A DNA stretch of 64,000 nucleotides. Origin: Agelas oroides (Eukaryota > Porifera > Demospongiae > Agelasida > Agelasidae). This document shows, one piece after another, positions 14,017 to 61,194 of the stretch (the stretch's first letter is position 1; every line of letters begins with the position of its first letter). The position numbers and the translations under genes were made by a program. Below the pieces are notes generated by a model that searched no databases, was not told where the DNA came from, and worked only from the letters and a program-made list of their open reading frames with translations. The stretch spans positions 449,001 to 513,000 of the forward strand of contig OX422200.1 in NCBI GenBank assembly GCA_949130485.1. Direction: 5' to 3'.

Positions 14017-14082
<66 letters not shown>

Positions 14083-17366: not shown

Positions 17367-17446
17367 TGTTATAGTCCGATCACAGGCTCGATCACAGAGG
17401 TACATAGTCATATATAATTTGTTGGCTTGTGAAAAAGGAAAACAAA

Positions 17447-17521: not shown

Positions 17522-17530
17522 GTCGCCAAA

Positions 17531-34099: not shown

Positions 34100-37000
34100 T
34101 CATGGGATTTCATAAGCACCTGGCTCTTCCCCCTGGCCACCCTCATAGCTAACTTCTGCATAAGCTGAACACTTCTTCATGGTCATCTCTGTGATCCTGC
34201 ATGAGAACAGGCATGAAGTAGAAGGACAACCTAGATGACTGGTGTATTACAGTAAAACAAAAGTACAGATCATCTCCACGTGGGATGAGATTTTGACTTT
34301 CAAATGGCTATGTTCTACCAAGAGCATTACTTGGACATCAACATGCAGTTAGTTATAATACCATAGAAAGACCCCTGATTGTCCTGTATCCACAATAGAC
34401 TTATACTTTTCTGAGTACAGTCCAGGTGGTGTAGAGGACAAACTGCACACGGCAAAGACAAACCATGCAACTCCTCATACACTGCTTGAGCTATAGAGCT
34501 GACAGATAATAACATGCAGAAATGACTGCTGTGATCTTCTCACCTCTGGGATTCACTTGCTGTCTTAGAGGTAGACCTGCATGGTACAATAATATAATAA
34601 GTTCCATCAGAGATCAAAATACCTCACGATAATGATTACCTCCAGATGACTGAAGATTGTATAACAGCCACCACTAGGAGAACCACCACTGCTAATACTG
34701 CGACTCCTGCCACTGCCCAAGCTAACAAGTCCAATGAAACTGTTGTACAGCAAATGTACACAGTAACAAACACCGAGCTACCTCATCCCCAGGCCAGGTT
34801 CTCTTGGCATAATGGAACCAAGGTTTACCAAGAGCCTAGCTATAGCATAATATTACCTGGGTCTTCTGTAGGGCATGTGGATGGTGTGCCTGGAGTTAAG
34901 TTGAAACCACAAGATTAGTCGTACAGAAGATATACACTATTAATCCCAGCATACCTGGAGTACTGTTGACAAGATTGCCAAAAGGACCAGTGGTTTGATT
35001 ATTCACTGCTGCCACTTGGAATGTGTACAGAGAAGCGTTTGGAGTCAGTCCAGAAACAGTAGTCTCGTGAATTGGGCCATCAGTTACTACAGTCTGCACA
35101 GCCCCACCACACATGGACTGATACTGCACAAGGTAGTGGGTGACTGCTCCACTTCCATTGAAGCACTGAACCTCACTCCAGGAGACATTTACAGTGGTGG
35201 GGTTCACTGCAGTGACTGTTACCAGCTGTGGAGCTCCTGTACAGTTGAGAAAATCAGACTGTATGCATGATCATGCACAGCTTGCTTGTAACTTACCTCC
35301 CAGTATGATGGGTTCACTGAATAGACCAGTTCCATTGACATTGACTGCTGCCACTTGGAAAGCATACTCAGTGTTTGGAGTAAGGCCATCAATTCGGATG
35401 CTACTTGTTGCTTCTGCCTTGCTCCCCTGCATATCTCTATCAGCACCACAGGTTGCATAATACCTCACAACATAGCCAGTGATGGGCCCATTTTGTTGGA
35501 CACAAGGCACTTCTCTCCACCTGAGAGATGCTTTACTGGGTTGCACAAACATACCCTGCAGTGACTGTGGAGCTCCTGAGGGAACTGAGCATGTAAGGGG
35601 TGCTGATTACATTGGCTATTGCTAGTTTGGCTATGTATTAATTATGACATCATTTTTGAGTACAGTATTATTACAAGTTGTGGAAGTACAGTAAAAGTTG
35701 GTGATTACAAAAAAGTAACGAAGTGCATCCTACTAAGTATGCAAGTGTTGAAGGAATTCATCTCCTACCTGCTGTGAATGTCCTTGCATACACTGGGCCA
35801 ATAGAGAACACTCTACCTCCACTGAACCCAGACTGGTTGACAGTGAAAGTGTAGTTTATTCCTTCTTGCAGTGTATCAAACATGTGCTCCTGGCGATCTG
35901 TCTCCAGCCTTCCCTCATCAACATAGGCCCCACACGTCCCCCTGTAGTAGATGTGGTACTGCTGTGTGTGGCAGGGAGCCACCCATGTCAGACGTACTGA
36001 GGCAGGGGACAGTACAACTGCTGAGAGACTGTGAGGACCTGAACGGATAGACATCATGTGACCACAAATCTGTGTTTCCACAAACATTCAGTATACCTTG
36101 TAGTGGAAGGAATGCTACCCCCTCCCTCCTGTACTCTCCAGCAGTGGCCACCACAGCAATAGTGTAGTTTGTGTTGCATTGGAGGTCAGTGAGAGTAGCT
36201 GCAGCTGCCTCTGGGTTTCTGAGCTGCAGGGAGGACTCACCACCTCCCTCAGGACGGTAGGTCACAGTGGTGGTGTGGAAGCAGTCAGGAGCTGGCCCTG
36301 AACTAGACCATCGCCATGTTACCCTGACACTTGAGGCACTTGTGAACTGAGCAGTGATGTTAGTGGGAGTGGGAGGGGCTGGAGTGGTACAGTGGTACAA
36401 AGTACAGTACATTGTATGAAAGATTGCAATGCACAGTCATATCACCTCATACCTCTTGCTGGCAGAGAAACTGTTTTAGATACACTTGTTTTACCAGTTT
36501 GACCACCACTGGCATGAACCCAGACAGTGTACACTGTATCACACTGGAGATTGAGCAAGGTGGCACTGGTTGCTGCTACTGTACTGCCCGCTGTGTACAT
36601 CAATAGAGAGCCTCCCTCGGGTTGGTAGTCAACTCTAACATTGCCAACACACATGGATAGACCCTGACGTGACCACTGCCATGACACACTGATACTTGTA
36701 TTATCTGCAGTGGCTTCAGCTGTCACTCCAACTGGGGCAGGTATATCTGTAAAATGGCAGTGCCACCATCATGTTATTGACCTGTAAATATCTCATACAC
36801 ACAATTTTCATTACCTCCCACAAGCACTTGCACTGCACTACCAGTCACTGTGGAACGTGTGCCACCTGGCTCTCCAGTCACCACCACAGTGATGTAGTAA
36901 TATGTACCACACTGAAGGCCAGTCTGCATGACCTCAGTTTGTGATGTATTGGTAGTTGTGTTGGTTGCTACTACAGCCCCATGACTACTAGTTCTGAAGT

Positions 37001-37317
37001 CCACCCTCACAGATATCACACACTGTGGTGGTGCTGTTGTGCTCCAGGTCACTCTAGCAGCAGGGGTTGAGCCACTCACACTCTCAGCACTCACAGTGAC
37101 AGTGTAGGATGAAAACTGAACAGCTGCAATTGAGAATGAAAATTCTGCATGAAGATGGTAAGTTGTGCTAAAACTCTTGTTTACACAATACAAAGTGTTT
37201 AGTAGTACCTGTGAGGGAGCAGCTATGTGATGCTAGCACCAGATGAGAGCTGCAGAGCACCACAAGAGTAACAAGAAGGCACCATGGCATGCAACACCGG
37301 ACGTGAAGTGAATGCAT
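34100..37317 (-). CDS. FN3 receptor C: six FN3 domains, TM, YEIP tail
   Basis: Single-pass surface protein of unknown ligand. Eleven exons: 37209-37317 (signal peptide), FN3 exons 36815-37123, 36453-36746, 36097-36378, 35769-36038, 35297-35575 and 34955-35236, then 34857-34889, 34640-34739 (TM), 34544-34576 and 34100-34196. The sum is 2088 nt, 695 aa. Every FN3 domain is one exon bounded by phase-1 introns, so domains can be shuffled. Several FN3 domains carry a Cys pair (EVQC ... SMCGG, APCHT ... GTCG), suggesting an internal disulfide unusual for FN3. A 10-residue stalk with TCPTEDP precedes the TM helix near 627-648. The short cytosolic tail contains SAYAEVSYEGG and ends AYEIP. There is no kinase or phosphatase domain. 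The ectodomain matches receptors D, E and F. Confidence 0.85.
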
Positions 37318-38222
37318 TGTTGAGCTGACTAGTAGCTACTAAGTTACACTCCTTCCTGAATATATGTACATAAAAGAGTTGATGGTAAACTAGTCTAATA
37401 ATGTTTTGGAACTAGAGCCTAGTTTACACTTAGTACTGATGATTTTTGGAAATGACCACATTAATTACTTAGTTTGTTAGTTTACATAAAATTCTCCCAA
37501 ACTGCATTAGTGTGCATTCTAGACAATTTGTAAACAGCTACCAGTCAACACCACTATCATAAGCAATGCTGTCACTCTAGTTGCTTATGTTTACCACCAC
37601 ATACATAGCTACAAGTAATTGGAGAATGCTTCTGTGTTGCACAGTAGGCCACTTTCTTTCCTATCCTCGGCTTTTGTGTGGTGCGGGCTGGAGTAGAACT
37701 CATACTGGTAGCCATGGCAATGTGTATGGTAACGACCAAGGCCCGCCCCTGCATGTCGGCCAGACCCTGCACGTTGGCCAGACCCAACCAGTATATAGCC
37801 ATGGGTTGACACTGAAATTCAACAAACATGCCACAAACCAGCATGCAAATAAAAATGCTTCGCATCATTCTTAGCTAGCTACAGTACAATGTGTTAGGTA
37901 GGCTCTTAAGGCCTGCTTCAATGGAAAAGCATTTCAAGCCATTCTACAAAGCCAGAGAGACTTCTTGAGTTTGATTCAGCAGCCTCCAGGTTGAGACCTA
38001 AGCTATGAGGTTATTGGTTGTTGTTTTGAAGTATCAAGTTTCCTTAAATGTTGCTGTCCTAACTGAGAAAGCAAACAAGATGTACGTATCAAGTAAACTA
38101 GCTCGTAGCTAATTGCTACAAAAACTATACTTGTAAACATGCTTCATCAAAACCAAAAGAAAACCTAGCTACAAATTGTCTCATCTACTGCATGTATTTG
38201 TTCGTTAGTCACTGTGCACAAG
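37318..38222. other. Spacer between receptors C and D
   Basis: About 900 bp containing the receptor C promoter and the receptor D 3' UTR. It includes AT-rich sequence and a tandem ggccagaccc duplication near 37755-37790. I see no gene. Confidence 0.6.
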
Positions 38223-41200
38223 TCATGGGATTTCATAAACTTGTGGCTCCACCCTCTGGTCACCATCATTGCCAACCTCTTTATAAGCTGGACACTCTTT
38301 CATAGTGATGTCAGTGATCCTGCATGAGAACATGAAGACATGCCAGTAGGTATAACATGTAAACCTACATGCAGCGGGCACAGCAAATCATATTATTCTC
38401 CCTATGAGGTGATGCTCTTTCTCTTTCAACAAACCAACAGCTTTATTGAGTAATCAACAGTTTATTTTACATTATTTTAATTCATAACTTACCCTTCTGA
38501 TTGTTTGGGTGATGTTGAGTACACACTGCACACAGCAAAGACAAATCAACTCACACAATGCTTGTGTCAATACCTGGTAGACTACATAAACATGCAGCAA
38601 GAACTGTTGCATTTACCTCTGGGACTGACTTGTTGTCTTAGACGTAGACCTGTATGGTATACAATGACCCTAAAATAAGCTCAAGATGATAACAATGATT
38701 GTTTGTTTACCTCCTGGACCAGATGACTGTAAACTGTCCAACAACAACAACCACCATGAGAATAAACACAGTGAGAACCAACACTGCTGCAACACCTGTC
38801 ACTGCCCAAACTTCTTGGCCATCTGATGGAGCTGCTGTCTCGTCTACTGGAGCCGTAGTCTCATTGGATGGATCTGTTGTACAGCAAAATATACACCGTA
38901 GCCTCATCCCCAGGCTATTGCCCTAGTTTTATTTCATTCCCATGCAGTACGTACACATGCATAGGGAGAGAGCCTGGAAACAATGGCTTATAGAAGTTAT
39001 ACATAATTATTGTGAATCCCTAGCGTTACCTTGTCTGTAGTCTTCCGTTGGACATGTGGGTGGTGTACCTGGAGTCAAGTTTTGTACAGTTGTATTACCA
39101 CATAAGGTAGGTTGACTTTTCAAAATCATCCCTACTTACCTAGAGATAATACAACAAAATTGCCAAAAGGACCAGTGGTTTGATTATTCACTGCTGCCAC
39201 TTGGAATGTGTACAGAGAAGCATTTGGAGTCAGTCCAGAAACAGTACTCTCATTAACTGGGCCATCAGTTACATTATTCTGCACAGCCCCACCACACATG
39301 GACTGATACTGTACAAGGTAGTGGGTGACTGCTCCACTTCCATTGAAGCACTGAACCTCACTCCAGGAGACTGTTACAGTGGTGGAGTTCACTGGAGTGA
39401 CTGTCACCAACTGTGGAGCTCCTACATTTGCAAGAAGTGGTGCATAATCAATATGTTATACCTATCACTGTCTACATACATGTACCCCATAGCTGCAGAA
39501 TCAAGTAGCTAGCTAAGTGGCACATGAGTTACCTCCCAGTATGATGGGTTCACTGAATGGCCCTGTTCCATTGAAGTTGACTGCTGCCGCTTGAAAGGCA
39601 TACTCAGTGTTTGGAGTAAGGCCATCGATGGTGTCACCTGTTGTCACTACTGAATTGTTTCGCTGCACATTTATGTCAGCACCACAGGTTGCATAATACT
39701 TCACAACATAGCCAGTAATGGGCCCATTTTGTTGGACGCAAGGCACCTCTCTCCATCTGAGGAATACTTTAGTGGGTTGCACAAACCATACTGCCTCCAG
39801 TGCCTGTGGAGCTCCTGAGGGAACTGAGTATGCAAGAAGTTTTGAGTTGATGTCTTAAGTTAGCTCTACATATACCTGTATTTACCTGCTGTGAAGGTCT
39901 TTGCATACACTGGGCCAGTAGAGAATACTCTACCTCCACTGAACCCAGACTGGTTGACAGTGAAAGTGTAGTTTATGTCTTCCTGGAGTCCATCAACTGT
40001 GTGCTCCTGATGATCTGTCTCCAAACTGCCCTCATCAACATAGCCACCACACGTCCCTCTGTAGTAGATGTGGTACTGCTGTGTGTGGCAGGGAGCCACC
40101 CATGTCAGATGTACTGAGGCAGGAGACAGCACAACTGCTGAGAGACTGTGAGGACCTAAAGGGATAGATACCTTAGGTTTATAATAACATCATAAACACC
40201 ATAGACTTTCGGATACCTTACACTGGAAGAAATGCAACAAAGACACAATCAATGATACATTGATTTGCCACATATACAGCAGCTTGATAAGCCATTGACA
40301 TGTGACCACAATAAGTTCAACTACCATTTGCTGACTATACCTTGTAGTGGAGGGAAAGTTAACCCCTTGCTCCTGTACTCTCCAGCAGTGGCCACCACAG
40401 TGATGGTGTAGTTTGTGTTGCACTGGAGGCCAGTGAGGGTGGCCTCTGTTGCTGCTGGGTCACTGAGCTGCAGGGAGGACTCACCACCTCCCTCAGGACG
40501 GTAGGTCACAGTGGTGGTGTTGAAGCAGTCAGGAGCCAGACCTGAACTAGACCATCGCCATGTTACCCTGACACTTGAGGTACTTGTGAACCAAGCAGTG
40601 ACCCCAGTGGGAGTGGGCGGGGCTGGAGTGGTACAGTGGTACGAAATGTTGTGAACTGTATGAAAGACTGCAATAAACATAATATGCACATACACATGCA
40701 CACCTCCTGAAAATATCACTGCATGTACCTATAGCTATACCTCTTGCTGGTAGATAAACCATTCTGAGGTCACTCCTTGTATCATTTGAACCACCCCTGG
40801 CATAAACCCAAATTGTATACAATGTGTTGCACTGGAGATTGGGCAAGGTGGCACTGGTTGCTGTTGTGCCCACTGTGTATGTTTGCAGAGAGCCTCCCTC
40901 AGGTTCACAGTAAACTCTAGTGAAGCCCAGACAGAGGAGTAAATCCAGGTTGGACCACTCCCATGACACTCTAATGCTTGTGTTGTCTGTAGTAACTTCG
41001 GCTCTCACTCCAACTGGGGCTGGTATATCTGTACAATGACATAATTACCATCAACTTGCTAAAATTGTTAAAATGGACCCAATGTTCAAACTTTACCTCC
41101 ATTAACAAGCACCTGCACTGCATTGCTACTCGCTGTGGGACGTATACCATCTGAGGTTACTCCAGTAACTACCACAACTGTGATGTAGTAGTATGTATCA

Positions 41201-42007
41201 CACTGGAGGCCAGTCTGAACGACTGCAGTGCCTGATGTATCATCAGTTGTGTAGGTTGCTACCACAGGCCCAGTGCTCCTAGTTCTGAACTCCACCCTCA
41301 CAGATGCCACACACTCAGGTGGTATTGTCGTGTTCCAGGTCACTCTAGCAGCAGGGGTTGGGCCATCCACACTCTCAGCACTTGCAGTAACCATGGAGAA
41401 TGTAAACTGAGCAGCTGCATAAAAATTTGGAAAATATTACACCCCAAGTGGATAGTAATGAATGAATGAATGTTGAGAAAAGTCATACGAGTGCTTGCAA
41501 ATGCCTACTATTTTATATAGTCATTCTCTCCCAGGCTAACCAGGGCCTACTCAACTTGCGACTTGGAGTTCTTAAGCCTGCTGAGCACTAACAAGACAGC
41601 TACTTCATACTCCTATGATATATAGTCCTACATTTAACCACTGAAGGACCCCAGTAAATTACACAGGGAACCCCGTAGCTAGATTATGTTTCTTTGATTG
41701 CCTAACCATTAACATAATTTGGCCCATATACCGGTGTGTTCACATTATGCATAGCTAGCTACCCCTCCACTATAGCATCCAGTTGCGGCTGGTAGCTAAG
41801 TACCAATAGGACAAGCATGCACAAGTGCCTGAACTATAGCAAAGATAGTGTACCAATGTTCTGCTATCATTTACACTTTGCACTTAGTTCAAAATATCAT
41901 GTATATAACTACTATTAGCTACCTGAGATGAAACATGTCTGGCCTCCAACTAGCATCCAGCTGTAGCTGCTAAGCACCAACAAAATGCACAACAATTCAC
42001 TGGCCAT
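38223..42007 (-). CDS. FN3 receptor D: six FN3 domains, TM, YEIP tail
   Basis: Paralogue of C with the same layout. Exons: 41923-42007 (signal peptide, MASELLCILLVLSS), FN3 exons 41097-41414, 40741-41028, 40341-40622, 39886-40155, 39533-39814 and 39140-39421, stalk 39030-39068, TM 38711-38873, 38617-38649, 38223-38319. The sum is 2139 nt, 712 aa. The stalk is longer than in C and rich in Thr/Pro/Glu with an N-glycosylation NET. The TM is a run of V/L near 640-662, followed by IWSRR. The tail reads ITDITMKECPAYKEVG and ends VYEIP. Signal peptide and tail are closer to E than to C. The Tyr residues are candidate SH2 or PTB docking sites once phosphorylated (inference). The ligand is unknown. 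Confidence 0.85.
41760..41830 (-). pseudogene. Relic signal-peptide exon within receptor D intron 1
   Basis: On the minus strand the sequence resembles the signal exons of D, E and F (TTGGTACTTAGCTACCAGC then CAACTGGATGC) but has no usable start or donor. It looks like a decayed duplicate. Confidence 0.4.
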
Positions 42008-42289
42008 GTCCGTTGAAGGCTGCGTATTATCCTGTTCTGTAATCAAACTATGTGGTTTCCAGATGGTGTAGTTTGTTTATGTTGCTAATCTAAACCACTT
42101 TGTGAATGGTGTTAGGCTTACAATTCTCTCAGTGATCCTGCAATCATAGAGGCATGTACAGTGTACAGTTACCACCACACAAAACCTTCACTAATGCTAT
42201 AGCTAGAATGCAAAGAACTAACAGTGTATACATAAAACCTGAGAGAAAGATGCTAGTGCGTCACAGCTAGCAACCAAAAAGGGAGCAAT

Positions 42290-42376
42290 TCTGTACTCCG
42301 ACTAGGATCCATCCAGTTACAGCTGTCAACTCAGTACCAACAAGATGAACAACAATACACCGGCCATGTCCATCTG
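42290..42376 (-). pseudogene. Relic signal-peptide exon upstream of receptor D
   Basis: Starts ATGGCCGGTGTATTG and encodes [13 protein letters not shown], like the D/E/F signal peptides, but then hits an in-frame TGA where they read on. The following bases still align with the GGATG part of the family. It is a dead first exon from a lost tandem copy. Confidence 0.7.
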
Positions 42377-43265: not shown

Positions 43266-44110
43266 TTAGAGATAATGATAATACAGCAAAATTGCCAAAA
43301 GGACCAGTGGTTTGATTATGCACTGCTGCTACTCGGAATGTGTACAGAGAAGCATTTGGAGTCAGTCCAGAAACAGTACTCTCATTAACCAGACCATCAG
43401 TTACAGTATTCAGCACAGCCCCACCACACATGGACTGATACTGCACAAGGTAGTGGGTGACTGCTCCACTTCCATTGAAGCACTGAACCTCACTCCAGGA
43501 GACATTTACAGTGGTAGAGTTCACTGGAGTGACTGTCACCAACTGCGGAGCTCCTAGCATTAATGCAAGAAGTGGTACATAATCAATGTGTTATACTTAT
43601 CACTGTCTACATGTACCCCACTAGCCTCATACCCAGACCACATGGGTACGAGGCTAGTACCCCACAGCTGCAAAATCAAGTAGCTAGGTAGCACATCAGT
43701 TACCTCCCAGTATGATGGGTCCCTGAATGGCCCTGTTCCATTGAAGTTGACAGCTGCGACTTGAAAGGCATACTCAGTGTTTGGAGTAAGACCATCAATT
43801 TGTGTGCTACCAGTTGATTCTGGTTTGTTCTGGTGTCTTCTGTCAGCACCCACAGGTTGCATAATGCCTCACAATACAGCCAGTAATGGGCCCATTTTGC
43901 TGGATCCAAGTTTTTGCAGCACACTATCATCATGCATAAGCAAAGTTCTTGTGTGTTGCTCAGTAAGAGAGGAGATATGAAGATAGTAACTTGTGTTTAT
44001 AGAACCTGAGAGAGAGCAGCTCTGTGATGCTACTAGCTACCAGATGAAAGCTGCAGAACACCACAAGAGTAGCGAGGTACACAGTGTTGAAGTGACATTG
44101 TTGAGCTAGC
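43266..44110 (-). pseudogene. FN3 receptor remnant (ψ) between D and E
   Basis: An intact sixth-type FN3 exon lies at 43266-43553 (APQLVTVTPVNSTT ... with phase-1 borders). Upstream is a fifth-type FN3 exon at 43700-43915 that lacks its N-terminal part and is broken by frameshifts. A decayed receptor-C-like signal exon lies near 44000-44105. No TM or tail exon follows before receptor D. This is the residue of a deleted tandem receptor gene. Confidence 0.75.
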
Positions 44111-44603: not shown

Positions 44604-47600
44604 TTACTGTGCATGTGGGATTTCATAGACATGTGGCTCCTCCCTCTGGTCACAATCATAGCCACCATCACAGCCAACTTCTCCATAAGCTGAACACTCC
44701 TTCATAGGGATCTCTGTGATATTGGTCCTACATGAGAACATGAAGAATATCTGAGATATCTGCTAGCAACAACTTCATTGAGTTGTACCCAGATTTGCAC
44801 TGCATCATAGGCTTAAGTTAAAAGAGTTTGGGAGGCATAGAGTGCACACTGCACACAGCAAAGACAAATCAACTCACACATTGCTTGTGTCAATACCTGG
44901 TAGATTACAAGTAATTACTGTTTGTGATCATACATACCTCTTGGTTTGGTTTGTTGTCTTAGATGTAGACCTGCATGGTACAATGGTCATAATTATGATT
45001 GGTACTTCAAGATATCCCTATTAATCTGAGATTGGCTTTGCTTGTTGTCATAGATATGGATTAACATTAGTTCTGACTAGAGATCAATGTTGTTTACCTC
45101 CTGGACCAGATGACTGTAAACTGCACAACAACAACCACCATGAGAATGAACATGGTGAAAAACAACACTGCTGCAACTCCCGTCACTGCCCAAACTTCTT
45201 GGCAATTTGCTGGAGCTGCTGTCTCATCTACTGGAGCTGTAGTCTCATTGGATGGAACTGTCTCATTGGATGGAAGTGTTGTCTGATCTATAGCTACAGA
45301 ATGTAAATGTACACAGCAACATACAAAGTCTAGCTTCATCCCAGTCTACTTTCCATTTTACAGTACAAAAGAGGGGAGAGCCTTGCTTACAGTATATATG
45401 TGTGGACATGAAGTAAATTGTTAGCTACACATAAAGAAGGCACGCTACATTTCATTGCTTACAGTATAGCTACACGTATGTACACATTGAAGCACATTGA
45501 AAGTACACATGTAAGATGTAAGACACAGCAATACCTGGATTGTTTATTGGGCATGTGGATGGTGCTCCACCTATAGATACAAAAGATACTCTCTTCAAAA
45601 TCACATTTCATTGCCTACACAAACATGTGGAGGGAGAGAACCTTTGCCACGAGTATACATATGTAAGCATTACCTGAGTCATCTGTTGGGCATGTGGGTG
45701 GTGTACCTGCAGTTATAGTTGTAAACTATCACATATACACAAGGTAGCTACACTCCTCAAAATCACCCCTGCATACCTGCAGATGTAGCAAGATCAACAA
45801 GATGGCTGAAAGGACCAATATTTTGATTATGCACTGCTGCCACTTGGAATTTGTACAGAGAAGCATTTGGAGTCAGTCCAGAAACAGTAATCTCATTAGC
45901 CGGACCATCAGTTACAGTATTCTGCACAGCCCCACCACACATGGACTGATACTGCACAAGGTAGTGGGTGACGGCTCCACTTCCATTGAAGCACTGAACC
46001 TCACACCAGGAGACAGTTACAGTGGTGGAGTTCACTGCAGTGACTGTCACCAACGGTGGAGCTCCTGTAAATTGAGTGGAAAATCAGACTGTATGTATGA
46101 TCATGCACAGCTTGTTTGTAACCTACCTCCAAGTGTGATGGGTTCACTGAATGGGCCAGTTCCATTGACATTAACTGCTGCCACTTGGAAAGCATGCTCA
46201 GTGTTTGGAGTAAGATACTCAATTATGGTGCTACCTGTTGTCACTACTCCCTTGCTCCCCTGCATATCTCTGTGAGCACCACAGGTTGCATAATATCTCA
46301 CAACATAGCCAGTTATTAATCCATTTTGTTGGATGCAAGGCACCCGTCTCCACCTGAGTAACACTTCAGTGTGTTGTACAAACATGGCCTCCAGTAACTG
46401 TGGTGCTCCTGAGGGAACTGAGTATGTACAAAATTATGTACTGAGTAAGCAAGTGATCCTCGTTTACTTAAACATTAGTATTTATTCTACCTGTTGTGAA
46501 TGTCTTTGCATACACTGGGCCAGTACAAAACACTCTACCTCCACTGAACCCAGTCTGGTTGACAGCGAAGGTGTAGTTTATTCCTTCTTGCAGTGTATCT
46601 AATGTGTGCTCCTGATGATCTGTCTCTAAACTGCTCTTATTAATGTAGGTCCCACATGTTCCCCTGTAGTAGATGTGGTATTGCTGTGTGTGGCAGGGAG
46701 CCACCCATGTCAGACGTACTGAGGTAGGAGACAGTACAGCTGCTGAGAGACTGTGAGGACCTGAAGGGATAGACAGCAATAACCGTTAGTTTTCATCATA
46801 AACACTTGAGCACTTCATTGTACCTGGTGGTGTAAAAAATGTTACCCCCTCCCTCCTGTGTTCTCCAGCAGTGGCCATCACAGTGATGGTGTAGTTTGTG
46901 TTACACTGGTGGATAGCGAGAGTGGTCTCAGTTGCTGCTGGGTTACTGAGCTGCAGGGAGGACTCACCACCACCCTCAGGATGGTAGGTGACAGTGGTGG
47001 TGTTGAAGCAGTTGGGAGCTGGGCCTGAACTAGTCCACTGCCATGCTACCCTGACAGTTGAGGTCCTTATAATCTGAGCAGTGATCCCAGTGGGAGTGGG
47101 AGGAGCTGGAGTGGTACGATGGTACAGTTAAGTCAGTTAAATACAGATTACATATTATGTGTATACCTCTTGCTGGTAGAGGAACCATTATGGGGGCACT
47201 TGTTGTAGTAATGTGATAATGACCACCCCTGACATAAACCCAGATGGTGTACTTTGTGTTGCACTCTAGGTTGGACAAGGTGGCACTGGTTGTTGCTGTT
47301 GTGTTGCTTACTGTGTACATCATCAGAGAACCTCCCTCAGGTTGGTAGTGAACTCTAACAAGGTCAACAATGCATGTGGGCTGAAACCGTTGTGACCACT
47401 GCCATGATACTCTGACACTTGTGTTGTCTGCAGTAACTTCAACTCTTACATCAATTGGGTCTTGTATATCTGTGCAATGGAAGTACCATGATCACATTGC
47501 TATACCAATTGAATCTCATGCATGCAGTATTTTTTACCTCCAACAGCCGCTTGCACTTGTCTGCTATTCAGTGTGGCACGTATACCATCTGAGGTTTTTC

Positions 47601-48367
47601 CAGTAACTATCACAGTGATGTAGTATATAGTACACCGGAGGCCAGTCTGAATGAACTCATTCTCTAATGTATTGTTAGTTGTGTAGGTTACTGCTGCAGG
47701 CCCCCTTCTACTAGTTCTGAACTCCACCCTCACAGATGCCACACACTCAGGTGGTACTGTTGTGCTCCAAGTCACTCTAGCAGCAGGGGTTGAAAATCCC
47801 CTCACATTCTCAGCACTCACAGGAACAGTGGAGAGTGTAAGACTACCAGCTACATGTGTAATAACAAAAATGCTGCAATGACACATTGTGGGGATTGTAC
47901 AATAGCTACATAAATCATCAAGAAAACTCTTAGTAGCTATGTAGCTATGCTGTCGTCCAACTAGCATGTAGCCTAGCTGAGTAACAACAAGACAATTCCC
48001 TTACCACGGATGATAGTTTTATTATTCATAGACTATTCCTACAAAGCATACACCCAACCACTGAAGGGGCCCATGCAGATGTCACATATTCCTACATCTG
48101 CATGTTCTGTATACTTCATAATCAACACAGTATATGAAGTGACTTCCTTGGGCTAGCTATATATTATAGTGGATGGTGAACCAACATTCTGCCACATAGG
48201 CTCATTGATACTTAGCAGTTATAGTTATTATCATCATTATGTAGCTTTAGGTATATCTACTGAACTACCTACATAGTACCTGAGAGGGGGCATGTCTGTC
48301 CTCCAACTAGCATCCAGCCGCAGCTTCTGAGGACCAACAAGATGAACAAGAACGATTCACTGGCCAT
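44604..48367 (-). CDS. FN3 receptor E: six FN3 domains, TM, YEIP tail
   Basis: Exons: 48280-48367 (signal peptide, MASESFLFILLVLRS), FN3 exons 47538-47849, 47167-47469, 46824-47105, 46491-46760, 46127-46408 and 45777-46064, two stalk exons 45674-45706 and 45535-45570 (both with a TCP motif), TM 45098-45293, 44938-44970, 44604-44727. The sum is 2247 nt, 748 aa. The stalk exon is duplicated relative to C and D, and the TM exon carries a repeated PSNET. The tail has SAYGEVG, then HVYEIPHAQ and stop, three residues beyond the YEIP end of C and D. The signal exon, the first FN3 exon and the introns between them are nearly identical to those of phosphatase F, while the C-terminal half resembles C and D. 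It therefore reads as a chimera or a product of gene conversion. Confidence 0.87.
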
Positions 48368-51455: not shown

Positions 51456-51507
<52 letters not shown>

Positions 51508-51566
51508 GCTCGCACTGATTGGATCAAGAGCAATATTAACCGTTTTGAGGAAGTGCAGAAACTAAG
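49536..51566 (+). pseudogene. Copine 5'-end pseudogene
   Basis: Duplicate of the copine start at 62352. ATGGCGACCT is at 49536. A 350-bp insertion follows, then the rest of exon 1 from ACCTACCCTCCC, lacking its middle part (the VELHLSCKKLRD segment), to the donor near 49978. Exon 2 (51505-51566) keeps its CA-tract acceptor but has lost 33 nt. About 1 kb of unrelated sequence lies in the intron. No third exon is seen. It is non-functional as a copine. Confidence 0.8.
49546..49895. mobile_element. MITE inserted in copine pseudogene exon 1
   Basis: 350 bp with inverted ends of about 50 bp (gcttgtaacaaaactcg near the left end, cgagttttgttacaaacg near the right), flanked by a 4-bp duplication acct. 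The interior has palindromic gtgaccatgtaagcttacat units. No coding capacity. Confidence 0.8.
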
Positions 51567-53100
51567 GTACACAACAGTTGAGGTAACAACAAGAGTATAC
51601 ACAAAATATAATCCGAAGGAGCAACTCAGGTTTGCCCTTACCATAGGCAAGGACTGACGTTCACTCATCTGTGGGGCAAAAGTATATAACAGACAAGCAA
51701 CACCTTAGACTCATGCAACACCATTACCACAGTTGGGGGTTTAGTCACATTCCTGTGGCAAGTGGTTGTGTTACTCAAGTTGTAGTACTCAAATTGGCAT
51801 ATGCACACTATGTATGGTAAACATGTTCCCTGGCCATCCTTAGCATTCTTAAGATATCAGTACCTTTGTAGAAAAACCAGTGTAAGCGCACATAAGCCAT
51901 TTTTGAGTGTGACAACAAACTTGAAATTTCTAATATTTGTTCTAGCAGTGAACTTCAGCACAAATCTGCGGCTATATTCCTTACTGAATAGAATAGCTAT
52001 TATTCAGACCCCATCCAGCTTTGTCATCAGAAAGTAGGAAGAGCATGGTATATGAGTGTCGTGAAGCAGTTCATAAGCTCCTGCCATGACATAATTTGAC
52101 AAACAGCCAAAATTTTCAGCAAATTGTTCAAGCAAATAGCTATACATCCAGGTTCAGTATAGTTACTGCCTCGACTAGCTAAGTTCAACTTAGCTGCCTG
52201 GCTCCTCTTGCTGTTCTGAACTCAGGTATGTAATGCACAGTTAACCCCTTTCTATCATCCTTCAATCCTGACATCACATAAGTGAAATAATGTACCAGGC
52301 TCTCTCACTTTTCTGTAATGCAAGCGATAAAATGCCTGGGAACGACTCATGGCTGCAGTGGGACTGAATCATTTTCAGAGTCCTTACAGTTTGTTAGTCT
52401 CAGCATGTGTTCTTAAGGCACTGACTCAAGACAAAGAACACCTGGATGAATGCCTCTCAAAAACTTTTGAAAAGACAAGCCAGACATCATTATAAATCTA
52501 GAGGGATCGAGAACTGCACTGTTGTATGAACTCATCAATTCAAGCTTGTAATCTGTAGCTACACACCTGGTATAAGCATGCAGTATAAGCATGCAAAATG
52601 TCCTGGGGTGTAGGCCTTTGCCAGCTTGTCAAAAAGCCTCTGGTACACAGTATGCTGGTAGTGGAGGCTACTGTTTCCCCACAAGTTTCTTGACAGATAA
52701 AGTGATCAAGGAGTGCTTCTTTGAAGAATAGTACTGATACCCTGTGTATTTAGTAGTATAGCATTCTGTGTTTTAGTCAGGTAATTACCATGCTATTAGC
52801 TAGTCTCGCGTGGCCAAACCCTTACTGGGTAAGGGTCTGGGCACGCGAGACTAGCTCTCAGTTATGAACCACTGCAGAATGATCTGACTAAGAGTTGAGC
52901 TTACTGTGAGTGAATACTGTAGTATTGACACAGATAGACTGTAGTTGAATAATCTTGTTTAGGAACTATTTAGTGGCTCCTGGGAGTTTGCATGCACTAT
53001 AGAAGTACCTAATATTCACTTGCACAGTGCCACTTGAACTGTGCAGTCTGCAACATTTCACTTTAGTGTAGTGCATAAGTACATCATGTTCAGATTAGAA
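51567..53100. other. Spacer without recognised gene
   Basis: About 1.5 kb between the copine pseudogene and the relic FN3 fragment. A strong hairpin lies at 52801-52854. ORFs here are short and unsupported. Confidence 0.6.
52801..52854. repeat. TAGTCTCGCG hairpin repeat
   Basis: Arms tagtctcgcgtggccaaaccctta and its near-complement. Same terminal motif as the hairpins at 49463 and 62278 but a different interior. Confidence 0.7.
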
Positions 53101-53102
53101 GT

Positions 53103-53290
53103 CATGTCCAGATTGGAAATGTTCAGATGGGAAATATTCAGATTGGAAATGTTCAGATTGGAAATGTTCAGATTGAAAATGTCCAGATTGAAAATGTCCA
53201 GATTGAAAATGTCCAGATTGAAAATGTCCAGATTGAAAATGTCCAGATTGAAAATGTCCAGATTGGAAACGTCTATATTGGAAACGCGGA
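53103..53290. repeat. 15-bp GATTGAAAATGTCCA minisatellite
   Basis: About 12 copies, graded from gattggaaatgttca to gattgaaaatgtcca. The 15-bp period keeps all frames open on both strands (NLDIF on minus). It directly abuts the relic FN3 fragment. Confidence 0.9.
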
Positions 53291-53322
53291 GATTGGCAGA
53301 ATGGAATGGCCCTTCTCGGCCA

Positions 53323-53560
53323 CCGTAGAAAGGACCAGTGGTTTCATTATGCGCTGCTGCCACTTGGAATTTGTACAGAGAAGCGTTTGGAGTCAGTCCA
53401 GAAACAGTACTCTCATGAACTGGACCATCAGTTGCTACATTCTGCACAGCCCCACCACACATGGACTGATACTGCACAAGGTAGTGGGTGACTGCTCCAC
53501 TTCCATTGAAGTACTGAACCTCACTCCAGGAGACATTTACAGTGGTGGAGTTTACTGTCT
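53323..53560 (-). pseudogene. Relic sixth-type FN3 exon
   Basis: Minus-strand sequence matches the last FN3 exon of receptors C-E (SWSEVQ ... SMCGGAVQN ... SGLTPNASLYKFQVAA). The start of the exon is lost after TVNS, its conserved Cys after EVQ is Tyr, and the end runs into the minisatellite. No partner exons are nearby. It lies downstream of phosphatase F. Confidence 0.75.
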
Positions 53561-53900
53561 ACACTAATAAGACTACCTGCCATATTTATTCACTTCCAAA
53601 CTTGCATCATCATAAAAGTGAATGTTGAGTAGTAAACCTTGTTCAACTATAAGTGGCAAGTAAGGGCAAAAAAAAAACAAAAAAAAACAGTAGCCAAAGT
53701 ATTTCCCTGCTTACAGAATCATACAAAGTGTGTAGCTATGTAATGATGAATGGAACTGTACAGATAGGTAATGTTGTAATACACACCACTGTTGCCACAA
53801 TGTAATCCACTAGGTTGCTACAGCTTTAACAAGTTAAACAATATACTACCGGTACTAATGCTATGAATCCATGCTACAATGACTTGGTTGAACAAGAAAG
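53561..53900. other. Spacer below phosphatase F stop codon
   Basis: About 340 bp with A-rich runs near 53670-53690. Expected to hold the 3' UTR of the phosphatase gene. Nothing else seen. Confidence 0.6.
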
Positions 53901-56900
53901 TCATTTGAAATTAGAGTAAATGCTGAATGACTCGAGGAACAACAACATCAGATCAAATATGAAACGGTACTGTTCCTGCAGGAAAAGACAGTGGATAAAA
54001 ATGGTACTATTATTAGTATGTACACATACTGTTTTTAGAGCCATGATAAGTTAGCTAGCAATGATGTGTGCTCATTAGAAATCTGAAAAATTGTCAATCT
54101 GGGATTTAGTTGCAATGTAACAAGCTGAACTCACACAAATTACTAGAGCTTACCATAGTGAGGACACTGCCTGGCTTTTGGAAGCGGAGTGCCTTCACTA
54201 CCTGGAACACATCCACAATGCCCTCTGTCTTGCAACACTCAGTGGCACTGATGAATGAACAGAACACTCCACACCGGCTCGCTGTATTACTGTGTGTGGT
54301 GAGTGGAAGGAAATGGAATCATTTCTCTACACATGTAAAACTGGAAGAGTGACCCCATCCAGCTGGCTCACCTGCCATGGACCACGATGGGTCTGTTTCC
54401 AGTCCTCCTCTGTACCACCAACACCTGCTCAATGACTGCCATGATGGCAGGAGGGGAGGTGCACAGACCTCCAGGGGTCCAGCAGGGTATCTGGAACTGA
54501 GTCACCTTGTGATCCTCACCAGACTGCAGGAAGAGGTAAGAAGATATGAAGAGGTATGGAGAAACAAATGTCTGAGTTATAAAACAGAGTAAAAAGTAAT
54601 ATATCAGCTGCATAGATGGATACTTGTCTCATGCAATATATACGTACCTTGGGGTTGGTGATGCTGATGACACGTTCTATGAAACCATCCTGGTCTGTGG
54701 CTTGGAGGACAGACACACTGTACTCTCCATACTTCTGCACTCCCTTGGTACTACCATCAGGCCAGTATTGGTGGCACACTTCCTGCAGTGAAGAGAATAT
54801 GATTGCTGGTTAATGAAGTATATACTTCATCTACTATCAGCCTGTCTCCTACCTTTCCATTCTCCACGAGGTCTGACAACATCACAATCACCCCACACTC
54901 TCTCTCATAGACCATCTTCCAGAAGTCTCGACAGGTGGAGTTCATTGGAGCCTGGGTGATAATGAACCCCTTCCACAGCTTGTAGCCCTGTGTGTGTGCG
55001 TGTATGTGGGTATATAATCCCAAACTCAAGTTTGTAATTATAAGCTACCACTCAATGTGAAGTTGCTCATATTAGCTAATCTTACATTTGCAAAACTGGC
55101 ATGAATGTAGTCATTAGTTTCACCCTTCAGTACAACCCTCCATTTGTCAGCTATAGTGCATACAAGAACAACTCAAGTCCATTTCAAAACCTCACTCCAC
55201 CAAATTTGTTATCATTTAGTCTCACATGGCAGAAAGTCCATGCTCCTGTTTAAGTTAGGGAAGCGGGAGGCAGTGGCTCTGATGACTTCAGTAGGTTTTG
55301 GAGTCACCTGACCAAGAACCTGTTGGATCAGACAAAATAAATGCTAGCAGTGCAGGGCCGTAGACAAGTTTTTTAGTTTTGGGGTGCTAACTTTCACTAC
55401 ACATCATAAGCAGTTGTGTGCTATGGCTATGTGCTATATCCTTCAAATACAAATGCCAAAAATTTGGGGGTGCTTCAGCACCCCAAGCACCCACTTGTCT
55501 ACGGCCTTGCAGTGTAGTCTTTACATGTCAAAGTTAAAGTAAAGGTAGCTTCGTGACATTCCTCTGGTGTAGTGAAGTTTTTCAAAAATAAGGATAATGT
55601 ATATACTCCAATGTTTATGCTGTCCAACTGTCAACATGTTTAGTTCCACATCAACATCCAAAGTCAACTCTACCAGATGGAAGATAGTTTCTTTTACTAG
55701 TGCAGGGCTTAGGACAATAACAGAATATCACAGTACAAACATGACCATACATGGAACTGTGTCTCAAATCCTGTCCTCCCAGTTTCACTGTCCTTCCGTT
55801 TCAGTTTCTCAATGGCACTGGCGAGTCCCGAGGCTGGGATCTGGGTGACTCCACAGGTGAGAGACTCCAGGACAGCATCATGGATGAACACGTACTGGTC
55901 CTGGATGAGACACATGAAGCACTTCTATGTATACATGTCAACTAAATACGAATAGTCCTTAATAAAAAAAGTATGTGTCAGCCCAATTCAGCTGCATGCT
56001 TCTCTTACCGAGTTCTGGACCATCTTCATACGCTGTCTCCTCATCTTGGTGACGATGGCAGGGATGTCCACTACATTCTCCTTGGCAGCCTGCTCCAGAG
56101 CCATGTCAATGGCTATCAGTGTACCTGTCCTTCCCACACCAGCACTGCAGGGAGAGATGTGGACCCTCATTGCTGTGACAAAGCAATACACACACAAGTA
56201 CACCATTGTACATTTCCAAACCTAGCTGACCTGCAGTGCACCAATGTGGGTCCTCTGAAGAGCATCTTAATTCGACGAAGGTAGTTGAGGATTGGCCCAG
56301 CATACTCTGGAACACCATGGTCTGGCCAGGAGGTGAAGTGGAACTGAGTCACCTTCAGCTGATTTCCTCCACTCCTTTCACACTGCAGAAGATAAAGAAC
56401 ATACCTAAATACCAACTTCAACAGCAGGTGTGGTATATTGTAATAGTGATTACTACATACACTCGTTTTCATTATTGAGACTGTTTAGGAGCTCATCAGT
56501 TATATACATCACATATACATATATGTACATAGCAGTCACATTCGGATCTCAAAGTCACTATACTATTAACATAAACTGCAGACATGACTTACAGAGACAA
56601 ACAGCTGTCTGATGGTGTAGTCTGCAAACACCTGCTGGTCTGTGAGGGTGACTTTGAATGGACCATACTCTTGGGTCCCCTGCTCTGGCCAGTACTGCTC
56701 ACACTTCTTCTGTCCCCCCTCCACAGCATTGGTTACCATGGCAACTGCATGGATCTGTTCCTGCCAGACCATCAACCAAAAGTCAGTGACAGTGTTTGGG
56801 AGAGGACCTATGGAAAGTTCAGAACCTCAACTGAAGAGCTGAGATGCAAGTCTTATGTAGCTCACCTTGGGTGGCAATGTACTTCTTGCCTTGAGAGTAA

Positions 56901-59900
56901 CCCTGAGTGTCAGATATAATCATGTGCAGAGGGGCTTGATGCAAGTTTTCCCTAGTCAAATATTTTTAGGGAGCTTACATCTACATAGGCAGCATTGATG
57001 TAGTCGTGTTCACAGTCAACACCTCCAGAAATGGACTTCAGGACAACACGATGATCATCATCTGTTCCAAAAGGGAAAGCAATTTTTTTATCTCTAAAAT
57101 AAACAACTACTTCCTTTACAAACACTGTTAAAACAACATTGGCTCACAGGCGGTGATGTTCCTAAATCGATTCAGAAGCCTGTTTTCAGAGGATTTGCCA
57201 ACAGTTGTCTGGTGCCCTTCCTCCCCAGAGGGCAATGCCTGAGATCAGAGAACAACAATCATGTTTTGGAGGTACTGTTAATATATCATAGATAGATATA
57301 CTACCTGGAATTGTACAACAAAGCCACCATTGTTGTGGGCATGAAAGCTGGAGACATACTCTCCAAACTTCTCTCTAGTGATTGGGTTACTCTCCACTCT
57401 GGGTGTACTGGCACGCTCCTCATCCTCAGCACGCACCACCAGCTTGGTGCATCCTTCCACACTGCCCACATTGTTACTGACAGTGAAGGTGTAAGTACCA
57501 GCATGCTTCGGCTCCACAGCCATGAGCGTCAGTGAGCCATCCTTCCCAACCTCAGTGGAGTAGTCATCCTTTACCTTCCTCCCATTGAAGAGCCAGGTGA
57601 CAGTGGGGGTGGGGCTGCCAGCAACCTTCACTGTCAGGATGACCTGCTCTCCTTCAGAACACTGCACCTCCCGCTGGTAATCCACAATGGTTGGAGGCAA
57701 TACTGCATGTGTGTGTTAATGATTTAGTTACTGCAACACTGCATACAAACATTGTTAGGTAACATTGTGACAACCTGATTGACATGCAGTTAACTAAATT
57801 TGCATGACTTTTTGTGCTACCTTGCTTTTGCCTTTAAATTTTCAATAAACAATATTTGAAGTAAAAGTGTGAGATTGTATGACTGTAGAAGCAGCAGACA
57901 CAGAGGAGAGAAGTGCAGAATAACTGTTACTCAAATTTGTGAATGGCAGTCTAAGAATTGTATTATAGGCACACTGCTGCAGTAGGTTCTGCTGTGGAAT
58001 TGTGGAAGATTTGATGACTGTAGGATGGCAGTTTGTAGAACAACTAAGTAAATGTGTATCGCATTACGACACACACTCTTTCAGACATTCAAGAAAATAT
58101 GTCACAACTAGTTTTATATTATATTGATAAGTATTGCAATTGTTTAAAATGAAAGGGTGTTCAATTAAACATCGCATTTTACACAAAGATGAATTGTGGT
58201 ATTTACCCAATTTGTAAATCAACAAGTGTCATAACCAGGATTTAACTTACTTGCAAGTTTCATATAGCAGGTATTGTCAACAGATGTAGCTGCATCTTGT
58301 TCATCTTTACTGTCAACACTGTCCATATCTTCCATGTCAGCCAACTCCACTGCAGTGACCTTTCCACCCATGTGCTTATGTCTAAAGGAATAACGTTATA
58401 TATATGGTGGTGCCAGAAGAGCCTTTCTAAAGGCAAATTGAGGGTTTCTTATATATATATATATTTTAAATGTGGACTGCATTTATGTAGCAGCATGATG
58501 TGAGCTGATGTGAGTATAATTTAATGCATGGCCTTACCTCCACCAGATGACCAGGACCACAATGCCAACAGCTACAACCAGGGCCAGCACAACCACAGAC
58601 CCAGCAACACCAGCCACCAAGCCAAGGTCAAGGGGTGATCCAGAGCTAGGATCACTGGGTAGTTGAGTGACACTGGCCAATTGAGTGACAGGGTTAGTGG
58701 ATGATGGAGGTACATCTGCATAATGCCATGAGTAGACAGAACAAAGTGCATATGTATTCAGTGATGTTTCAATTTGTCAGCAACCAATGGTGTATACAAC
58801 TGTTAAGCTACCTGAGTCAAATGAGTCATTTGGACACATGGATGTTATGCCTGCAAAATACAGTGAAATGAATCATAGCAGGGTCCATTTAAATTACATC
58901 TGACACCTCACCATGGAGAGACACATTGGTGGGATTGCTAAAGGGTCCAATCTTCTGATTAGCTCCAACTGCAGCTACACGAAATATGTACGCAGCAGCA
59001 TTTGGTGCCAGATCTGAAACAGTTTCAACTGTACCATTAGTCGTTACATTCTGCACGGCACCATTACATGAGGACCAATACTGCACAAGGTAGTTGATGA
59101 CTGCTCCACATCCATTGAAGCACTGAACCTCACTCCAGGAGAGAGTTACAGTGGTGGGGTTCACTGGAGTGACCATCAAGCATGGAGGATGTAGGCGTCC
59201 TATAGTACCCATGCGACAACAATAATCGTTAGTTTTCATCATAAACACTTGAGTGCTATGTACTGAGTAAGCAAGTGATCCTGGTTTGTATTAAACATCA
59301 GTATTGTACCTGCTGTGAATGTCCTTGCATACACTGGGCCAGTAGAAAACACTCTACCTTCACTGAACCCAGTCTGGTTGACAGTGAAAGTGTAGTTTAT
59401 TCCTTCTTGGAGTCCACCTAATGTGTGGTCCTGACGATCTGTCTCCAAACTGCTCTTATTAATGTAGGTTCCACATGTCCCCCTGTAGTAGATGTGATAC
59501 TGCTGTGTGTGGCAGGGAGCCACCCATGTCAGATGTACTGAGGTAGGAGACAGTACAGCTGCTGAGAGGCTCTGTGGACCTACAGCAGTCATGTGACAAC
59601 AATAATTGTTAGTTTGCATCATAAACACTTGAGCACTTCATTGTACCTGGTGGTGTAAAGAATGCTACCCCCTCCCTCCTATGTTCTCCAGCAGTGGCCA
59701 CCACAGTGATAGTGTAGTTTGTGTTACACTGGTGGATAGTGAGAGTGGTCTCAGTTGCTGCTGGGTCCCTGAGCTGCAGGGAGGACTCACCACCACCCTC
59801 AGGATGGTAGGTGACAGTTGTGGTGTTGAAGCAGTTGGGAGCTGGCCCTGAACTAGTCCACTGCCATGCTACCCTGACAGTTGAGGTCCTTATAATCTGA

Positions 59901-61194
59901 GCAGTGATCCCAGTGGGAGTGGGAGGAGCTGGAGTGGTATGATGGTACAGTTAAGTCAGTTAAACACAGATTGCATGATATTGTGCATACCTCTTGCTGG
60001 TAGAGGAACCATTATGGGGGCACTTGTTGTATTAATGTGATCATCACCACCCCTGGCATAAACCCAGATGGTGTACTTTGTGTTGCACTGGAGGTTGGGC
60101 AAAGTGGCAAGGGTAGTTGCTGTTGAATTCCCCACTGTGTACATCATCAGAGATCCTCCCTCAGGTTGGTAGTGAACTCGAACAAGGTTAACAATGCATG
60201 TGGATAGATTCTGATGTGACTCCCACTGCCATGACACTGTGATACTTGTGTTGTCTGCAGTAACTTCAACTCTTACATCAATTGGGTCTTGTATATCTGT
60301 GCAATGGAAGTACCATGATCACATTGCTATACCAATTGAATCTCATGCATGCAGTATTTTTTACCTCCAACAGCCGCTTGCACTTGTCTGCTATTCAGTG
60401 TGGCACGTATACCATCTGAGGTTTTTCCAGTAACTATCACAGTGATGTAGTATATAGTACACCGGAGGCCAGTCTGAATGAACTCATTCTCTAATGTATT
60501 GTTAGTTGTGTAGGTTACTGCTGCAGGCCCCCTTCTACTAGTTCTGAACTCCACCCTCACAGATGCCACACACTCAGGTGGTACTGTTGTGCTCCAAGTC
60601 ACTCTAGCAGCAGGGGTTGAAAATCCCCTCACATTCTCAGCACTCACAGGAACAGTGGAGAGTGTAAGACTACCAGCTACATGTGTAATAACAAAAATGC
60701 TGCAATGACACATTGTGGGGATTGTACAATAGCTACATAAATCATCAAGAAAACTCTTAGTAGCTATGTAGCTATGCTGTCGTCCAACTAGCATGTAGCC
60801 TAGCTGAGTAACAACAAGACAATTCCCTTACCACGGATGATAGTTTTATTATTCATAGACTATTCCTACAAAGCATACACCCAACCACTGAAGGGGCCCA
60901 TGCAGATGCCACATATTCCTACATCTGCATATTCTGTATACTTCATAATCAACACAGTATATGAAGTGACTTCCTTGGGCTAGCTATATATTATAGTGGA
61001 TGGTGAACCAACATTCTGCCACATAGGCTCATTGATACTTAGCAGTTATAGTTATTATCATCATTATGTAGCTTTAGGTATATCTACTGAACTACCTACA
61101 TAGTACCTGAGAGGGGGCATGTCTGTCCTCCAACTAGCATCCAGCCGCAGCTGCTGAGGACCAACAAGATGAACAATGACGATTCACTGGCCAT
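53901..61194 (-). CDS. PTPR-like: Receptor tyrosine phosphatase F: 5 FN3, TM, cytosolic Ig, PTP D1 and pseudo-D2
   Basis: Removes phosphate from tyrosines at the inner membrane face. Exons: 61107-61194, 60365-60676, 59991-60296, 59647-59928, 59310-59579, 58912-59199, 58812-58850, 58538-58715, 58251-58381, 57305-57702, 57148-57238, 56979-57061, 56866-56902, 56593-56807, 56231-56382, 56009-56144, 55751-55900, 55226-55319, 55086-55150, 54853-54987, 54648-54782, 54372-54523, 54154-54289, 53901-53975. The sum is 3948 nt, 1315 aa. Signal 1-29, FN3 domains to about 515, TM near 563-586, I-set Ig domain about 632-725, PTP D1 about 745-1052, D2 to the end. D1 has [20 protein letters not shown] and [10 protein letters not shown] (Cys956), so it should be active. 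The usual Tyr of the KNRY loop is Phe (NRFRN). D2 has HGSNTASR (Cys to Gly at 1245) and no WPD Asp, so it should be inactive. The end [10 protein letters not shown] fits the family. Confidence 0.88.

Follow-up and report, generated by a model that had tools for sequence, protein, structure and literature searches.

FN3 receptors with a short tyrosine tail or a tyrosine phosphatase module in the sponge Agelas oroides: a candidate paired-receptor family

Introduction

This report concerns a cluster of four receptor genes, here termed C, D, E and F, in the demosponge Agelas oroides. They lie on the minus strand of a stretch of 64,000 nucleotides (the window: positions 449001-513000 of contig OX422200.1, C18 below, in an assembly of 259,295,671 bases and 141 contigs). 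Their products combine a signal peptide, fibronectin type III (FN3) domains, a stalk and a transmembrane (TM) helix with one of two cytosolic modules: in C-E a short tail with conserved tyrosines, and in F an Ig domain followed by two protein tyrosine phosphatase (PTP) domains, D1 and D2. We consider it probable (roughly 0.6) that these are four members of a large family of sponge type I receptors, in which the intron following the TM exon marks the junction between a modular FN3 ectodomain and its cytosolic part, either a tail or an Ig-D1-D2 phosphatase, with the two kinds working as pairs.

Four FN3 receptor genes in tandem

The gene models were built by exon-by-exon reading. Their introns are GT-AG in 56 of 56 cases, splicing is in frame and there are no internal stops.

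34100..37290, minus strand: gene C, 698 residues in 12 exons; signal peptide, six FN3 exons, stalk, TM, two juxtamembrane exons and tail exon 34100-34196 (SAYAEV ... YEIP)
38223..42007, minus strand: gene D, 723 residues in 12 exons; plan as in gene C; tail exon 38223-38319 (PAYKEV ... YEIP)
44604..48367, minus strand: gene E, 746 residues in 12 exons; plan as in C, with two stalk exons; tail exon 44604-44727 (SAYGEV ... YEIPHAQ)
53901..61194, minus strand: gene F, 1311 residues in 24 exons; signal peptide, five FN3 exons, stalk, TM, juxtamembrane, Ig-wedge, D1 and D2
43273..44071, minus strand: relic gene between D and E; FN3-6 at 43273-43551, FN3-5 at 43716-43905, signal-exon remnant at 43993-44071
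53328..53555, minus strand: relic FN3-6 exon between E and F

The coordinates given for the cluster in the initial annotation are right, and the relics that it had reported in the array are borne out by the pieces in these two gaps. Each FN3 domain is encoded by a single phase-1 exon. All of FN3-1 to FN3-6 are present in C, D and E, and all but FN3-5 in F; by eye, the acceptor region of FN3-6 in F resembles a copy of the FN3-4 acceptor region, which fits a loss of FN3-5 by recombination. Gene E appears, from its sequence, to have lost one juxtamembrane exon, for which no donor was seen. The Pfam domains of the ectodomains are FN3 only: C has six fn3 stretches, and F has fn3, one I-set and two Y_phosphatase stretches. 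The rest of the window, searched with queries of at least 25 residues, yielded no further exon of the phosphatase, Ig or tail kind at an E-value of 1e-3.

Likeness of the ectodomains

A domain-by-domain alignment, which had been proposed as a check, finds same-position FN3 domains of C-F 57-100% identical in protein, against between-position means of 22-41%; their likeness is hence well above that of unrelated FN3 pairs. The FN3-6 of F is 61-65% identical to those of C-E, and no more. Paired cysteines stand at matching sites (about 32-35 and 66-72 in FN3-1 to FN3-3; about 22-26 and 35-44 in FN3-4 to FN3-6), with extra cysteines in FN3-2 of D, FN3-4 of E and FN3-6 of both E and F. The shared plan claimed for the four genes stands in its one exon per domain, domain order and cysteine sites, but F is without FN3-5 and four domains carry additional cysteines.

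The ratio of nonsynonymous to synonymous substitution rates (dN/dS) in FN3-1 is 0.72 for C/D, 1.16 for C/E and 1.43 for D/E; it tops all domains in the latter two pairs, and in C/D it compares with 0.78 for FN3-6. Positive selection on FN3-1 was considered and set aside, as its excess over the other domains (p = 0.19, 0.061 and 0.014 for C/D, C/E and D/E, respectively) is only a hint. A structure model of FN3-1, with a mean predicted local distance difference test score (pLDDT) of 44.6, was not used. No relatives of the ectodomain were found among prokaryote genome contigs. A protein search with the whole of C returned, after the candidate cut-off, 15 weak FN3 matches, one of them with a species-group name (bacterial), and says little on other sponges.

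A near-identical tract shared by E and F

The likeness of genes E and F extends, upstream sequence included, over about 3.1 kb, within which lies a tract of near-identity that spans the outermost FN3 domain.

47417..48325, minus strand: E copy of the tract, 909 bases with two mismatches; reaches from within the signal exon through intron 1, FN3-1 and intron 2 into the start of FN3-2
60244..61152, minus strand: F copy of the tract, placed by the constant offset of the exon models
47538..47849, minus strand: FN3-1 exon of E, with the same DNA sequence as 60365-60676 of F

FN3-1 is thus the same in E and F over 103/103 residues as well as in DNA. Intron 1 is matched at 428/430 positions and intron 2 at 68/68, whereas introns 3 and 4 are 90% and 87% alike; in DNA, FN3-2, FN3-3 and FN3-4 reach 90%, 96% and 92%. 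In the kilobase upstream, 90% of the aligned bases agree. The tract has identity runs of 221 and 665 bases, the latter longer than in every one of 2000 column permutations (maximum 263). From the signal exon to FN3-4 there are 81 mismatches in 1877 columns, 79 of them in the 968 columns outside the tract (about 92% alike). In its flanks, single windows of 100 columns just outside it score 97-98, followed by 85-99 downstream and about 56%-90% further upstream. As far as the alignment can tell, the tract resembles the gene conversion of paired receptors.

The family across the genome

Members elsewhere in the genome were sought with three exons, and the resulting counts are lower bounds. The tail exon of E gave 47 matches at E-values up to 1, of which 42 were kept and five, at 0.17-0.70, dropped; FN3-1 gave 66, and 62 of these were mapped after removal of four short, weak matches; the Ig-wedge exon of F gave 47, of which 21 were kept and 26, weaker or pieces of kept ones, dropped. 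On contig C1, 30 tails and 15 Ig-phosphatases are interleaved at 6.40-6.99 Mb. On C18 the three tails of C, D and E are followed by six Ig-phosphatases, namely F and five to the right of the window, and C17 has five tails. Stretches of 6 and 7 kb read at two other C18 loci contain FN3, juxtamembrane, Ig and first D1 exons in the order of F, with extra FN3 copies. Adjacent FN3-1 exons stand head-to-head in three pairs, two of which combine a tail with a phosphatase gene.

Each FN3-1 exon was given the type of the cytosolic module that came next on its own strand, up to 12 kb away, which typed 49 exons out of 62 (30 tail, 19 phosphatase) and left 13 open, 11 of them on C7. A tree was built from 54 of the 62 (27 tail, 18 phosphatase, 9 open); two had not been fetched, and six under 190 bases were excluded. 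On this tree the phosphatase label needs 15 changes, against a shuffled mean of 15.2 (as low in 262 of 500 shuffles), and the tail label 16, against 18.3 (82 of 500); for the phosphatase label, at least 10 of these changes are required by starred branches. The nearest typed FN3-1 by DNA is of the other type for 9/18 phosphatase rows and 19/27 tail rows, with 11 expected in each. Close cross-type pairs include E/F (381/381), the C1 pair 6625686/6673624 (294/294), 6782767/6808846 (283/288), 6505583/6508017 (288/294) and 6535801/6591198 (297/315); the closest phosphatase-phosphatase pair scores 277/291. On these alignments, FN3-1 does not follow the type of cytosolic module.

The open C7 exons cluster in the tree (4 changes against 8.5 shuffled). 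The C7 region (G000:C7:2560378-2745622; L063, L064, L067, L070, L075, L076, L079, L080, L083) holds 11 FN3-1 exons with no tail or Ig-phosphatase assigned within 12 kb, along with two divergent tails ending YALPR; judging from the sequence, there may be a third cytosolic module here. PTP exons are also densely arrayed, roughly 5-30 kb apart, at about 4.87-5.07 Mb of G000:C12, and none of the kept Ig-wedge matches falls there.

The short tails

The tails of C-E have 52-55 residues. The SAYxEV of C and E fits the consensus of the immunoreceptor tyrosine-based inhibitory motif (ITIM), and the PAYKEV of D does not. Across the genome the first tail tyrosine is kept in 42/42 exons and the second in all 41 that have sequence there; this conservation argues that the tailed genes are under constraint, and the tail is, by its sequence, a conserved module. 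Its typical form is ECSAYGQI ... IYEHPQ. An ITIM-type motif ([SILV]xYxx[ILV]) is present in 40/42 exons and YExP in 35/42. The YEIP reported for C-E is indeed found in all three, though E ends YEIPHAQ and the second motif genome-wide is YExP; exact YEIP, in only 5/42 exons, was rejected as the defining motif.

The immunoreceptor tyrosine-based activation motif (ITAM; YxxL/I, spaced 6-12 from a second YxxL/I) occurs in 0/42 tail exons; with the ITIM-type motif in 40, an ITAM or activating reading of the tails was set aside. The initial description of C-E as activating receptors finds no support in these counts or in the membrane: the sole charged residue in the scanned membrane segment is an Arg at the inner end in D and E, so that a charged-residue adaptor is not indicated. 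The motif points to a possible inhibitory role. Because it is ITIM-like, the tailed receptors could be inhibitory in their own right, and 'activating' and 'inhibitory' are not labels to be taken for granted. Tandem-SH2 phosphatases bind ITIM-type tyrosines once these are phosphorylated, and Crk/Nck-type SH2 domains bind YxxP motifs. The proposed search for the tail in other genomes gave nothing: among 355 candidates no match in another species was obtained at E-values up to 1, in a search that needs shared words and is weak evidence of absence.

The phosphatase module and its cytosolic Ig domain

The cytosolic part of F comprises the following exons, in order from the membrane:

58251..58381, minus strand: juxtamembrane exon with CYMKL
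57305..57702, minus strand: Ig-wedge exon; I-set Ig domain and receptor-type PTP (RPTP) wedge in one exon, on the cytosolic side of the TM
55751..57238, minus strand: D1 phosphatase exons; active-site motifs intact, signature split by an intron
53901..55307, minus strand: linker and D2 exons; Gly in place of the catalytic Cys

F is a receptor-type PTP by its TM helix and PTP domain, with the WPD loop and CX5R signature of D1 both intact and PTP sigma and LAR as the closest solved structures of D1 (about 1e-132). The active phosphatase domain previously ascribed to it is upheld for D1, as predicted from these motifs, but D2 is inactive by sequence because Gly replaces its catalytic Cys. The D1 domain of receptor phosphatases removes phosphate from tyrosine. 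At ten phosphatase loci (L051-L060, F included) the juxtamembrane motif is CYxK[IL] in eight and CYEQI in one, the match being cut in L055; by eye, the ITIM consensus fits 6/10 of these. Membership of F in the R3 RPTPs, outlined in PMC5336234 as having FN3 repeats and a single PTP domain, was rejected because a second PTP domain and an Ig domain are present in F.

The best solved match of the Ig-wedge exon is titin (6e-32). A search with F residues 560-1020 gave 7985 matches among 7989 scored candidates, of which the best 120 were considered; among the first 33 of these, 32 are sponges by name or gene prefix (Em being Ephydatia muelleri, as used in PMC7385117). Nineteen of the best 120 were read. 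In 17/19 the TM helix is followed by the Ig match and D1 (P0004 and P0026 show no TM). These proteins, from Geodia, Halichondria, Ephydatia, Amphimedon and Corticium, share with F the succession of TM, juxtamembrane stretch, I-set Ig, wedge, D1 and D2, under ectodomains of FN3, sushi or other domains. Hence the cytosolic Ig domain before D1 is, by these sequences, common to other sponge phosphatases. Unlike these relatives, the C-E tail was found in this genome alone, within the limits of the word-sharing search.

An alignment of the Ig domain (F and 18 of the 19 proteins, P0004 left out) lacks, by eye, the canonical Cys pair wholly in 17/19 rows, as expected for a cytosolic domain; P0001 of Corticium has both cysteines and P0026 one. 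In the AlphaFold model of the Amphimedon relative P0022 (mean pLDDT 63.5) a TM helix at 53-77 precedes Ig strands at 132-218, with pLDDT blocks of 59-85, and wedge helices from 242; Foldseek ranks RPTP alpha, sigma and LAR first for this model. An extracellular placement of the Ig domain of F was rejected: it sits after the only predicted TM helix, shares its exon with the wedge, and belongs to an alignment in which 17/19 rows are without both canonical cysteines. The notion of FN3 and phosphatase exons as separate genes was likewise discarded, as annotated sponge proteins carry both. No description of a cytosolic Ig domain in receptor phosphatases was found in literature searches of titles and abstract openings.

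P0026, from Geodia barretti, is an Ig-D1-D2 protein with no predicted TM and the N-terminus MGNKSS. We presume that this start could be an N-myristoylation motif, which would make P0026 a membrane-anchored version of the module.

Other features of the window and bacterial matches

A Copia-type element occupies 24041-27838 of the window, with gag, integrase and reverse transcriptase matches; its 175-base terminal repeats are 99.4% alike, which suggests a recent insertion. In window 1-17400 a sortilin/Vps10-like gene region is duplicated in tandem (about 0.6-6.4 kb versus 9.0-17.4 kb). There is a minisatellite of near-identical copies, with a period of roughly 100 bases, at 15962-16578, and an intron-free open frame of 716 residues with ankyrin repeats at 17507-19654. 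The phosphatase alignment gave two bacterial loci when run against prokaryote genome contigs. A relative of eukaryotic receptor-type PTP domains, at 32% identity, lies at 9998-10753 of an Endozoicomonas contig (L001), that is, in an animal-associated bacterium.

Paired receptors and alternative readings

The vertebrate paired receptors, such as CEACAM, Siglec-11/16 and KIR, offer the closest parallel to the C-F family: clustered genes, similar ectodomains, different cytosolic parts and conversion of the outer domain between the two kinds. In frogs and primates, conversion of ligand-binding regions is described as keeping the partners alike, and as confined to those regions (PMC5112662, PMC5701461). 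Clustered genes, highly similar ectodomains and different cytosolic modules were all found in the sponge family, as was an outer domain alike across kinds (the E/F tract and the near-identical cross-type FN3-1 pairs). It differs from the vertebrate systems in having FN3 in place of Ig domains, in having a receptor phosphatase as one partner in place of an ITIM or ITAM receptor, and in showing no ITAM in any of the 42 tail exons. By genomic pattern, the C-F family may thus be classed as a variant working like paired receptors.

Among invertebrates, the Botryllus fester co-receptors and Hydractinia Alr are likewise clustered receptors, and ITIM-type motifs are reported for the former and for candidate Hydractinia genes (PMC12065747). 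The Botryllus proteins have Ig and sushi ectodomains and Hydractinia Alr has ones of Ig type, as against FN3 only in C-F, and the available part of that account mentions no phosphatase partner that shares the ectodomain (PMC12065747). LAR/PTP sigma and the RPTP alpha class, which supply the closest solved sequences and folds, have the tandem D1-D2 of F; F differs from them in its cytosolic Ig domain and inactive-looking D2. Literature searches of titles and abstract openings found no description of an FN3-based sponge array with a receptor phosphatase as ectodomain-sharing partner, in keeping with the first impression that no such sponge system had been described.

The proposal of paired receptors made in the initial annotation is supported by the E/F tract over the outermost domain, by the tailed and phosphatase genes interleaved on C1 and adjacent on C18, and by the lack of association between FN3-1 and module; its activating arm is not. 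The cytosolic Ig domain of F and the genome-wide extent of the family are additions to that first account. The exon models, the two modules, their placement in the genome, the tract and this lack of association are read directly from sequence. The mechanism can then be envisaged as follows. FN3-1 would be the recognition domain, and gene conversion and unequal exchange would keep matched versions of it on both kinds of receptor: one with a short tail bearing an ITIM-type tyrosine (mostly SAYGQI) and YExP, the other with an Ig-D1-D2 tyrosine phosphatase. One ligand would gather tailed and phosphatase receptors; Src-family-like kinases would phosphorylate the tails and SH2 proteins dock on both motifs. 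D1 would limit or reset the phosphorylation of the tails, and the balance would set the outcome.

Several observations weigh against this reading. The dN/dS of FN3-1 is not significantly above 1, the bootstraps including 1. The high identity of E and F extends beyond FN3-1 (96% for FN3-3 and 92% for FN3-4 in DNA), and the two genes have the same orientation, while the Xenopus study states that intrachromosomal conversion needs opposite orientation (PMC5112662). Beyond C-F and the two C18 loci that were read, module type was set by coordinates only. Lastly, if exchange were restricted to the outer domain, FN3-6 would be expected to follow module type. Among 31 FN3-6 exons the phosphatase label does need only 4 changes, against 8.7 shuffled (0/500 as low), but the 10 phosphatase rows represent six genes, with four rows from one. 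In 21 matched genes (six phosphatases, one exon each) FN3-6 needs 4 changes against 5.4 shuffled (64/500 as low; not significant) and FN3-1 needs 5 against 5.4 (264/500); a wider FN3-6 set, with 10 rows and two phosphatases, failed as a contrast. The contrast of FN3-1 with FN3-6 is therefore not firm, and restriction of exchange to the outer domain is not established.

The strongest competing account is neutral concerted evolution of a tandem family with rapid turnover, in which neighbours would be homogenised by chance, through crossing-over and conversion, and the tailed and phosphatase genes would act separately on different ligands. Tandem and segmental duplication with relics, the presence of close within-type pairs too (e.g. 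the two phosphatase genes at 277/291) and the infirm contrast just described all agree with it. However, the retention of tail tyrosines implies constraint on the tailed genes, and four of the closest FN3-1 pairs join opposite modules; we regard this account as a credible but lesser candidate. A homophilic or trans-adhesion system, as in adhesion-type RPTPs, seems unlikely. In it the FN3 ectodomains of adjacent cells would bind one another, and the tailed receptors would be ligands or cis partners of the phosphatases. Self-binding would be favoured by outer domains that are nearly identical in the two kinds, and many RPTPs are adhesion receptors, with homophilic PTPRK among them, but the tail motif implies signalling of its own. 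An artefact, whether a collapsed or mosaic assembly behind the E/F identity or FN3 exons that are not spliced to these tails, is very improbable given a large and contiguous assembly, identity that falls on both sides of the tract, tail frames and motifs kept genome-wide, and annotated sponge proteins with TM-Ig-D1 in one chain.

Returning to paired receptors, we tentatively suggest, as a possibility short of even odds, a germline sponge complex for the recognition of self, neighbour or microbe. In it, diverse outer FN3 versions would be kept by conversion on an ITIM-type tailed receptor and on a receptor tyrosine phosphatase with a cytosolic Ig domain; a single ligand would then engage both a substrate receptor and its resetting enzyme. 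The cytosolic Ig domain of receptor phosphatases poses a separate structural question, common to several sponges. The C-F family would offer a concrete sponge receptor complex with the genomic pattern that marks vertebrate paired receptors, one arm being the phosphatase itself. If this is true, paired-receptor logic would have arisen independently of vertebrates, and the family would be a candidate for the unknown allorecognition receptors of sponges.

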